From Stenocarpella maydis (taxonomy: Eukaryota > Ascomycota > Sordariomycetes > Diaporthales > Diaporthaceae): DNA of 64,000 nucleotides. The translations under genes and the position numbers were made by a program. Under the pieces are notes generated by a model. That model worked only from the letters and a program-made list of their open reading frames with translations. It ran no database searches and was not told where the DNA came from. This document shows positions 61,359-64,000 of the stretch, piece after piece. The stretch is taken from positions 349,550 through 413,549 of the forward strand of contig NQMI01000028.1 in NCBI GenBank assembly GCA_002270565.1, read 5' to 3'. Position 1 is the stretch's first letter. Each line of letters begins with the position of its first letter.

Positions 61359-62477
61359 CTACCACTCTGGCTCCTTCCTGTCACCACCATTACAGCCCCC
61401 GTTGCCGCCGACAGCCTGCGTTTTGCGCCATTCATAAACACCTCCTCTCTTTTCAAAGGCTCCCTTATCCCACCTGACTTGCTTCATAGCTTGATCCACC
61501 CCGACGTCGAGTATGGAATCGCTCTTTTTCATCGGGCCGTCACCCTTATCGAGGAAGCGCATACACTCGTCCAAAAGCAGATAGCTGCCAGCCATGGTTT
61601 GGTTATCTTCTGGCACAAAACACGATAGGTGTTTATGTTTGTCGCAGAACGTCTTCCACTGCCCCTGCGAAATTAGATATTTCCGCGCGTCCCGCACGCG
61701 AGTCTCGTCCTCATTTTCTCCCTCGACAATCAAGCACTGAAAAACCTTCCACCGGAACGGCTTCAGCTCCGCAATTTGCTCCGCCATGTCCTCGCCCCAA
61801 TTGTAAGAGTTGACAACGGTATTGAGCTTGAACAAGATGCCGTATTTCCTGCACCATTCGGCGATGCGAAACACCTGTTCCGCGTGGTCCTCATCGCCAT
61901 GGCTATTCTCGGCGCGCCCGATCGAAGTGTTGGTTTCTGGGACAAAGGAGTCGCACGAGATGGCTAGGATGTCTAGGTGCTGGCCGTGCTCGCGGAGGAA
62001 CTTCTCGTGGACTTTTTTTCCGTTGCTGATAATAGAAACGCTCTCGAGGTCTAGGACTTCCTTGCAATACAACAGTAGCTGCCCAAGGAACTTGGGGTGT
62101 AGAAAAGGCTCGCCGCCGGCAATGTTTAGTTTTCGCATGCCGGCCTCCTTGAGGAGGCGCAGGCCACGCTTGGCTTCAGCTAAGGGGAGGATGTAGCCGG
62201 AGGTATTGGTGTGGAAGCAGAACCCGCAGGCGTAATTGCATTCGCGGGACGGGAAGTAGTTGACGGACACGGGGACGTCTGGGCCGTCAGCTGCGTGCGG
62301 ACCTAAGTTCCCGGTGGTCTCTTTTCCAGAGTAGGCGATGCGGTATTTCTTGGCGGTGCCGTGGTGGCGGAAGAGATAAGCTGAGATGAGTCCCAGAAGG
62401 GCCATGACCAATATGAATTCTGGCATGGTTGAGAATACCGCCAGGATTAGCTGGCCGAATGATGATAGGATTCCCAT
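61359..62477 (-). CDS. RSAD2: Viperin-like radical SAM enzyme (ddhNTP synthase)
   Basis: An intronless gene of 372 aa. Viperins reductively cleave SAM and dehydrate a nucleoside triphosphate (CTP in vertebrates) to the 3'-deoxy-3',4'-didehydro form, a chain terminator for viral polymerases. Visible features: a hydrophobic N-terminal segment (about 19-37), as in the ER/lipid-droplet helix of animal viperin; the radical-SAM cluster motif CNYACGFC with Cys80, Cys84 and Cys87; LPLAEAKRGLRLLKEAG; the SAM-contact GGEPF at 121-125; the viperin hallmark LDILAISCDSF; RWKVFQCLIVEGEN; VPEDNQTMAGSYLLLDECMRFL; SILDVGV; and KRGGVYEW. These are viperin-specific, not merely radical-SAM. A Gly/Asn-rich insert follows Trp350, and the chain ends in Glu-Trp, as animal viperin ends in Asp-Trp for Fe-S assembly. 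It is divergent from a nucleotide kinase. Nucleotide substrate unknown. Confidence 0.95.
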   Translation of the reverse strand: MGILSSFGQLILAVFSTMPEFILVMALLGLISAYLFRHHGTAKKYRIAYSGKETTGNLGPHAADGPDVPVSVNYFPSRECNYACGFCFHTNTSGYILPLAEAKRGLRLLKEAGMRKLNIAGGEPFLHPKFLGQLLLYCKEVLDLESVSIISNGKKVHEKFLREHGQHLDILAISCDSFVPETNTSIGRAENSHGDEDHAEQVFRIAEWCRKYGILFKLNTVVNSYNWGEDMAEQIAELKPFRWKVFQCLIVEGENEDETRVRDARKYLISQGQWKTFCDKHKHLSCFVPEDNQTMAGSYLLLDECMRFLDKGDGPMKKSDSILDVGVDQAMKQVRWDKGAFEKRGGVYEWRKTQAVGGNGGCNGGDRKEPEW

Positions 62478-62886
62478 TCTCTTTGATAGCCCCCTCGCAG
62501 GACGGAGTCAGGCTAGGGAGCCAGTCTTGTTGATTGCAGCTTGGTTCAAGGTGGTCGGACGGACGTCTTTTAGTTCTATTACGGACCAGCTGTTTGCTAT
62601 TTGAACTGAGTGAAGTACGCCACGGACCAGGGGTGAATGAGCACAACAACAAACAACTGCAGTGATGTAATAATGTTTCGGTCTGGTGTGCCCCTCGCAC
62701 GGCCACAACACAAACACCTGGGCACCTGCAGCTACGGCAACAGCAGCCTTGGAAGGTAGCAAGCACCGCGGACGCCATGAGCTAGTTTTCCCTCCTTGTG
62801 CGCGAGTTCCACATCTTTTTCTTTCCCAACGTCCCTTGCAAGATCATCTTGGGTATGCATTGGCCGCCGCCCGAATACGAACGAAC
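62478..62886. promoter_or_regulatory. Shared 409-bp divergent promoter, viperin / NMP kinase
   Basis: The two start codons point away from each other across 409 bp with no intervening gene. The plus-strand frame upstream of 62887 is open but has no ATG, so 62887 is the first start. A single compact spacer implies shared control. I see no motif that I can name with confidence. Confidence 0.6.
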
Positions 62887-63716
62887 ATGACAGTTGCGAT
62901 GGATCCTTCAAAGAGGCAGAAGTCTGCCGTCATTTTCGTCCTCGGTTGGTCCACGTGTCTCGGGAAAGTAGAAGAATTCTGCTGACCATCTCGATAGGAG
63001 CACCTGGATCAGGCAAGGGGACGATATGCGACTTTCTTGTGCGTACTTACAGTCTTTCGCATTTCTCCGTGGGAGACAACCTGCGCACCTGGATGCAGGC
63101 GAATCGCGAAACGCCGCTTGCGGCTAGGATCCAGGAAAAGCTTGACCGTCAAGGGTTTCTCACATCTGTGGAACTGAATCCATTCCTGGGCATTGCCATG
63201 GAAAATGCAATGAGGCAGGGCGAGTCAAAAGGGATCCTGATCGACGGCTTCCCAAGGTGTGAGGAGCAGCTCAATTCGTGGGCAGAGTGGCCCTTCCAGG
63301 AAAGGCTTCCTTTGGTAAGTTTGTGGTAAGGGAGATGGGAAACCTGCATGCTCCAGCCGGTTGACCGTAGCACGCAGAGGGGCGATTCCAAGCCCGATGT
63401 GGTCTTGTTACTCAATGTAACGAGGGAGATTGCAGAAGCGAGGTATCTCGCCCGGGGTCGCGATCACAACGACAGTGCGGACAGATTCGCGAGACGATTC
63501 GCTGAATACCTGGCCGAGGGACCGCCTGTGGAACGACACTATCGGGAAGCAGGTCTACTAATCGAGGTAAGCCGCACAATTTACCTAATACATCTGGCAT
63601 TTAGTCTCACCAACTTCCAGGTCGATACCAATGGCACGAAGGAAGAGAATATCGCACTGCTCAAGAAGACGCTAGAAGACAGCACTCTTTGGAGCCATGC
63701 GGTCGTAGACCAATAG
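62887..63716 (+). CDS. Nucleoside-monophosphate kinase, UMP/CMP-kinase-like
   Basis: Four exons, 62887-62944, 62998-63314, 63378-63566 and 63621-63716, encode 219 aa; introns are 53, 63 and 54 nt. The first junction rebuilds the P-loop, VIFVLGAPGSGKGT (Gly20-Thr28). Other family marks are HFSVGDNLRTWM (NMP-binding loop), GILIDGFPR (99-106), and the LID/Arg region RYLARGRDHNDSADRFARRF. VIFVLG and the short LID match UMP/CMP kinases rather than long adenylate kinases. The enzyme should phosphorylate an NMP with ATP, probably in the cytosol, as no targeting peptide is evident. It differs from housekeeping Ura6 in several loops (for example FLTSVELNPFLGIAMENAM), so a specialised paralogue is likely. 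The second intron has two AGs 7 nt apart; only the distal one (63377) keeps frame. Its partner is the divergent viperin. Confidence 0.9.
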
Positions 63717-64000
63717 ACAAGGTCGGATTTCATTGTATGAGCATTTCAAGTTACTCAAAGGGGACCAAACCGAAGTACTAGCTGGTTTCGTTTTTAATCC
63801 GGCCACAATTCGTTTTTTCTTTTTCTTTTTCTTTTTCTTTTTTTTTTTTTTTAAAAAAAAAGGAGATACAGCGGCCGATTCATGTAGTCGTAAACGCTAC
63901 AATTGTGGCAATAGTAGTGTGCAACAGCACACTGGTGGGCTATCGCTACAGCCACCATACTGTAGCCAGAGGGCGTAGTTGCTTACTAAGCAACTACCAC
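63717..64000. other. 3' flank with T/A tract and stacked inverted repeats
   Basis: A T/C tract ends in a T run then an A run (63812-63861). Within the last 85 bp are three perfect inverted repeats: AGTGTGC/GCACACT (63916-63933), GCTACAG/CTGTAGC (63945-63966) and an 11-bp arm GTAGTTGCTTA/TAAGCAACTAC around one base (63975-63997). The window ends 3 bp after the last. Confidence 0.7.

Follow-up and report, generated by a model that had tools for sequence, protein, structure and literature searches.

The right end of the window, by which we mean the whole stretch of 64,000 nucleotides of Stenocarpella maydis DNA that was analysed, carries a viperin gene and a nucleotide-monophosphate (NMP) kinase gene that are divergent, with start codons 409 bp apart (Table 1). 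The original prediction, made from the letters alone, had named a full-length viperin with several quoted motifs and an intact kinase starting 409 bp away in the opposite direction, and both were confirmed, since the 372-aa protein passes NCBIfam NF038283 and the 219-aa protein passes Pfam PF00406. The kinase coding sequence (62887-63716, plus strand) consists of four exons separated by short introns, all of them GT..AG (62945-62997, 63315-63377 and 63567-63620). A chance open reading frame can be discarded for either gene, as each of them matches a curated family and has numerous relatives.

Table 1. Features of the divergent viperin and kinase genes (positions in the window)
Feature	Position	Strand	Remarks
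Viperin (RSAD2-like radical SAM enzyme), 372 aa	61359..62477	-	Single exon; hydrophobic N-terminus; C-terminal Trp
Intergenic region, 409 bp between both ATGs	62478..62886		Presumed shared divergent promoter, from the coordinates
Kinase exon 1	62887..62944	+	Our own splicing
Kinase exon 2	62998..63314	+	P-loop GAPGSGKGT completed here; NMP-binding Arg49; DGFPRC motif
Kinase exon 3	63378..63566	+	Short lid; Arg147, Arg151, Arg153 and Arg165
Kinase exon 4 with stop codon	63621..63716	+	Our own splicing

The 312 contigs of the genome assembly total 53.5 Mb, and the window ends where its contig (C198) ends, so that 284 bp are visible past the kinase stop. The last ~100 bp of the contig (63900-64000) are a high-copy dispersed repeat found in at least 40 other genomic places; it begins ~185 bp 3′ of the kinase stop and is perhaps the end of a mobile element. 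GC content between 56000 and 64000 is ~0.50, compared with mostly 0.55-0.60 elsewhere in the window, and GC3 is 0.68 in the viperin gene and 0.61 in the kinase gene versus 0.93 in the one canonical kinase compared. RIP as the cause of the low GC is unsupported, with TpA/ApT ratios of 0.66-0.80 in four 2-kb bins from 56 kb. The stretch left of the two genes carries an SDR gene and FAD-oxidase-like fragments as well as genes for a cytochrome P450 and for MFS transporters. The fragments are open frames between 59400 and 61160 that, from the impression given by their translations, resemble pieces of a berberine-bridge-type FAD oxidase; the two pieces scanned had no Pfam match, and the region is thus intron-rich or decayed.

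Viperin and a kinase subfamily of its own

The viperin carries the radical-SAM motif CNYACGFC (CxxxCxxC) together with all of the other motifs that had been quoted for it. It scores 242.7 bits against the NF038283 cut-off of 180 and stays below the cut-off of TIGR04278 (388.8 versus 450 bits, E 2e-116, positions 40-342 of 347); we class it as a viperin, though outside TIGR04278, because it passes the broader model. It also matches all three pVip models of PADLOC (pVip, 222 bits), and the nearest solved chains, which are viperin-like, are 9dfn (363 bits over residues 67-354) and 7n7i and 6b4c (345 bits), the latter two presumably from the fungus Trichoderma virens. Its closest relatives among the matches listed are from Diaporthe ilicicola and Colletotrichum. 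A profile search of the genome gave one further place, at 27.6 bits over 54 positions, and since that match is weak the window gene is the sole evident viperin in this genome.

When the window viperin was aligned with 120 listed relatives (n = 121), 127 positions were at least 95% conserved, including C80, C84, C87 and GGEP, and the chain ended in Trp in 105 of the 121 sequences, in Phe in 10 and in another residue in 6. A C-terminal targeting motif for cytosolic iron-sulfur assembly (CIA), with viperin named as a client, is described in PMC13082141. Judged by sequence, the C-terminal aromatic residue fits this type of targeting signal; the window viperin ends in Trp, but its -2 residue is Pro, which lies outside the [ILM] targeting consensus. 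C362, which lies in the C-terminal tail just ahead of the terminal KELEW, shows conservation of at least 95% in the rows having that column.

The kinase scores 75.5 bits against the Pfam ADK (PF00406) cut-off of 26.8 and falls below that of PF02223 (19.3 versus 27 bits, with no stretch passing alone), which bears out both parts of the earlier claim, that the fold is that of adenylate/UMP-CMP kinases and that the protein is unlike CMPK2; a CMPK2-like identity is thereby rejected. It also falls below the cut-off for UMP-CMP kinases, TIGR01359 (97.3 versus 207.6 bits). The P-loop and the NMP-binding and lid residues are present and conserved (Lys26, Arg49, Arg106, Arg147, Arg151 and Arg165). Residues were counted in 108 full-length rows of the clade to which the kinase belongs and in 41 other kinases, each position being scored in the rows that cover it. 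In the clade, the phosphotransfer residues are nearly invariant: Lys26 in 101/103, Arg49 in 103/104, Arg106 in 102/105, Arg147 in 108/108 and Arg151 in 107/108.

In UMP-CMP kinases, the Asn after DGFPR reads the base. The window kinase differs from them in having Cys in place of this Asn and in having Trp51. Cys107 is found in 93 of 105 clade rows, and Asn occupies that position in 26 of the 41 other kinases; Trp51 is found in 100 of 103 clade rows and in none of the 41. Gln110 is less distinctive, being present in 103 of 104 clade rows and also in 15 of the 41. Because part of the UMP-CMP base-recognition signature is absent, neither UMP nor CMP can be assigned as the substrate, and with an altered base pocket the bases used by the kinase and the viperin may not match. 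The adenylate/UMP-CMP kinase fold that had been proposed for this protein thus stands, refined by the lack of part of that signature, and fold comparison does not tell UMP-CMP kinase from adenylate kinase 1.

The canonical UMP-CMP kinase of this genome is encoded on contig C296 and is 28% identical to the window kinase, so the window gene is not the housekeeping UMP-CMP kinase. The genome also encodes, away from the window, two adenylate kinases with a long lid. From these comparisons, we conclude that the window gene is a paralogue additional to these and that its product, which has kept the predicted catalytic residues, belongs to a separate subfamily. The separation of the clade from other kinases has weak local support (0.445); its best matches outside the clade are mostly eukaryotic UMP-CMP kinases among the matches listed, and the closest relatives among the matches listed are again from Diaporthe ilicicola and Colletotrichum. 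Further ADK-type pieces occur on contigs C26 and C39; the one at 36127-36420 of C26 has an altered P-loop and DVFPR replacing DGFPR and may be an NMP kinase that has decayed or been repurposed. The window kinase is ~8 residues shorter than its Colletotrichum relatives, and in-frame tail codons are recognisable past its stop (63714-63740). In the C. karsti model, this tail is predicted to be disordered (pLDDT under 50), and a conserved hydrophobic tail as a clade-wide motif was rejected, being present in only 28 of 108 rows.

Linkage in other fungi and shared gene history

Linkage in relatives was scored when a viperin and a clade kinase lay on contigs of exactly equal size (using the longest contig per protein cluster), with or without support from locus tags, and it therefore means a shared contig or neighbouring tags; strand and spacing are readable for the window pair only. 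We compared 120 viperins listed of 2125 found with 134 listed clade kinases, and 45 of the 120 viperins matched a kinase. One match was dropped as a coincidence (4,076 bp, from different sources and at different places in the trees), and Diaporthe batatas was set apart. This left 43 pairs, 35 of them in named ascomycetes of three classes and 8 on other contigs. When the kinase values were shifted by ten small offsets as a control, 2 matches were obtained in all, or 0.2 per offset. Among the 35 named pairs, 20 are on contigs of 500 kb or less and 9 on contigs of 100 kb or less.

In 13 pairs, the two genes carry consecutive locus tags, as in Diaporthe citri (INS49_000051/52), Orbilia oligospora (TWF788_005949/50), Fusarium poae (FPOA_11787/88), Diplodia seriata (SLS55_003138/39) and Elasticomyces elasticus (LTR17_000128/129). 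These 13 fall in the Sordariomycetes, Dothideomycetes and Orbiliomycetes, with lineages looked up for ten species. In D. batatas, the viperin and the kinase are on one chromosome but 1094 tags apart, and are thus unlinked at the scale of genes, and in Arthrobotrys conoides a further clade kinase lies on a different contig. For 75 of the 120 listed viperins, no listed kinase lies on a contig of equal size, a number inflated in part, though not surely in full, by partners hidden by the 90% clustering and by the comparison of listed matches. Solitary fungal viperins likely exist. The matches of the two genes to their families are far beyond chance, and their relatives sit together in many fungi. 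A lack of linkage in related fungi, given with the original prediction as grounds for refuting it, was thus not borne out: linkage is seen in 35 named ascomycetes, 13 pairs among those kept having consecutive tags, and D. batatas and the 75 unmatched viperins are exceptions.

To compare the histories of the two genes, we used tree distances for 36 rows (the 35 named pairs and the window), and the viperin and kinase distances correlate with r = 0.906, a value reached in 0 of 5000 permutations, although some correlation is expected from the relatedness of the species alone, and the departure from taxonomy that the two trees have in common weighs more. With pairs from beyond the named organisms added, r is 0.80 (0 of 2000 permutations as high). 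In both trees, the window sequence and those of Glomerellales and Diaporthales fall together with two Dothideomycetes, Byssothecium and Massariosphaeria (support 99/94 for viperin and 98/97 for the kinase, where Zopfia also belongs to the group), and this mixed group stands apart from Hypocreales, Xylariales and other Dothideomycetes. The trees disagree on Zopfia, which is placed with Orbiliales in the viperin tree (93/78) but not in the kinase tree. The bootstrap of the kinase tree is unsettled and Recurvomyces forms a long branch in it; the careful kinase tree omits two kinase models, those from D. ilicicola (125 aa) and from contig lgn_78115 (139 aa).

AU tests, on groups that are taxonomic but were chosen after the first tree had been seen, reject the Sordariomycetes as one clade (viperin p 0.0008, kinase p 0.011) and the Dothideomycetes as one clade (viperin p 4e-5, kinase p 0.007). 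The Xylariales were not rejected (p 0.20 and 0.42, respectively), and a transfer between Xylariales and Lepidopterella or Diplodia, at which the shape of the trees hints, is accordingly not significant. The 4,076-bp pair is still present, ungrouped, in the trees and AU tests and is excluded from the r of 0.906. Because both trees reject the fungal classes alike, the pair either moved horizontally or was duplicated and lost as a unit, and by either route, horizontal movement or the sorting of old copies by loss, these trees would mean that it was inherited as a unit.

Relation to known viperin-kinase pairings

In vertebrates, the RSAD2 (viperin) gene adjoins CMPK2, whose product is thymidylate-kinase-like. 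The window locus resembles this arrangement in that a viperin likewise lies beside an NMP-kinase gene, and differs from it in that the fungal kinase fails PF02223 and passes PF00406; for this reason, the fungal pairing appears separate in origin from RSAD2-CMPK2. Prokaryotic viperins (pVip) have known kinase-associated or kinase-fused forms (PADLOC PDLC02904 and PDLC02905); no PADLOC model matched the kinase of C. karsti. The statement that many prokaryotic viperins neighbour nucleotide kinases stands as to the association but is too broad as to "many", since a review (PMC11249213) puts a CMPK2-like gene next to 15% of bacterial viperin genes; the same review gives human viperin and CMPK2 separate prokaryotic origins. 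From 126 prokaryotic relatives, of which 80 were kept, we examined 20 loci with E ≤1e-17 and found a kinase adjacent to the viperin in 2, both of the PF02223 (thymidylate-kinase) type. No ADK-type gene was found in the flanks of these 20 loci by profile and P-loop pattern (best frame, E 0.026), and joint inheritance of the pair from prokaryotes is unsupported. The viral contigs searched yielded 4 distant relatives and no fungal locus.

With a partner drawn from another kinase family, the viperin-kinase pairing looks convergent, and an independent origin, which had been raised as a possibility, is the best reading. The association itself is already known, and the fungal form with an ADK-type partner is a new variation on it. 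We found no description of a fungal viperin-kinase pair, nor a statement of the role of viperin in fungi, in the literature searched, which comprised titles and the starts of abstracts and lay outside the main viperin papers.

A candidate nucleotide module and its alternatives

Our favoured reading, which we consider probable, is that the two genes form an independently assembled functional module making 3′-deoxy-3′,4′-didehydro (ddh) nucleotides against RNA viruses or retroelements. Animal viperin is anchored at endoplasmic reticulum (ER) or lipid-droplet membranes through its N-terminus. The fungal viperin, held at such membranes in the same way, would turn a nucleoside triphosphate into a ddh chain terminator, and the linked kinase would phosphorylate the matching NMP, raising flux, or alternatively re-phosphorylate ddh-NMP recovered from RNA; a nucleoside diphosphate kinase would complete either route, and mycovirus or retroelement polymerases would be stalled by the ddh product. 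The pair would have been built in fungi from an adenylate/UMP-CMP-type kinase, apart from the thymidylate-kinase-like proteins that partner viperin in vertebrates and bacteria. The catalytic motifs, the separate kinase subfamily, the recurrent linkage and the shared history point to such a module, within which the immune role is a hypothesis; comparative support for the functional unit originally proposed thus comes from linkage and history, but a matched kinase is missing for many of the fungal viperins listed.

A bolder version, which we offer tentatively and hold to be somewhat improbable in full, makes the pair a horizontally mobile two-gene immune cassette of filamentous ascomycetes. Here, viperin and a purpose-evolved NMP kinase handling its substrate or ddh product would have been assembled apart from both RSAD2-CMPK2 and the prokaryotic operons and exchanged jointly across orders and classes, and the remodelled base pocket would set which ddh-nucleotide is made or recycled.

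Viperin is among the clearest cases of an immunity that spans the tree of life, and PMC10732462 regards the viperins of eukaryotes as ancient and as antiviral. If the module is real, a recurring partner from another kinase family would mean that viperin-kinase coupling evolved more than once, and repeated coupling would suggest a general chemical need, either substrate supply or salvage of the analogue. It would also suggest a nucleotide-based defence assembled by fungi themselves, and it offers a concrete gene pair for asking whether fungi counter mycoviruses with chain-terminating nucleotides.

The kinase could instead serve ordinary nucleotide supply under stress, being co-regulated with viperin through a shared promoter and not touching its substrate or product. 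Such a role would suit a protein that matches ordinary short-lid NMP kinases in fold and catalytic residues and whose base-pocket signature points to no single base, but canonical UMP-CMP kinase and adenylate kinases are already encoded in the genome, and both the clade-wide marks such as Trp51 and a gene history in which the kinase tracks viperin speak against it; we regard linkage of this purely regulatory or physical kind as rather unlikely. It is also unlikely that the pair belongs to specialised metabolism and makes an exported ddh-nucleoside, as an antimicrobial or a signal, with the kinase adjusting phosphorylation or protecting the producer. Fungal metabolite genes are usually patchy in distribution, with histories that depart from the species tree, and the neighbours to the left of the pair are of kinds that would suit such a pathway; only viperin and the kinase, however, are shown to be common to the 13 consecutive-tag pairs, and the relatives of the viperin have retained both the targeting residue at the C-terminus and the conserved core of an intracellular enzyme. 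Least probable of all, and disfavoured, is that the genes are chance neighbours whose functionless linkage was kept by slow rearrangement. The exceptions (D. batatas, the second A. conoides kinase and the viperins without a matched kinase) are what this would lead one to expect, but consecutive tags occur in three classes, linkage extends to 35 named organisms where 0.2 coincidences are expected, and viperin and kinase depart from taxonomy together.
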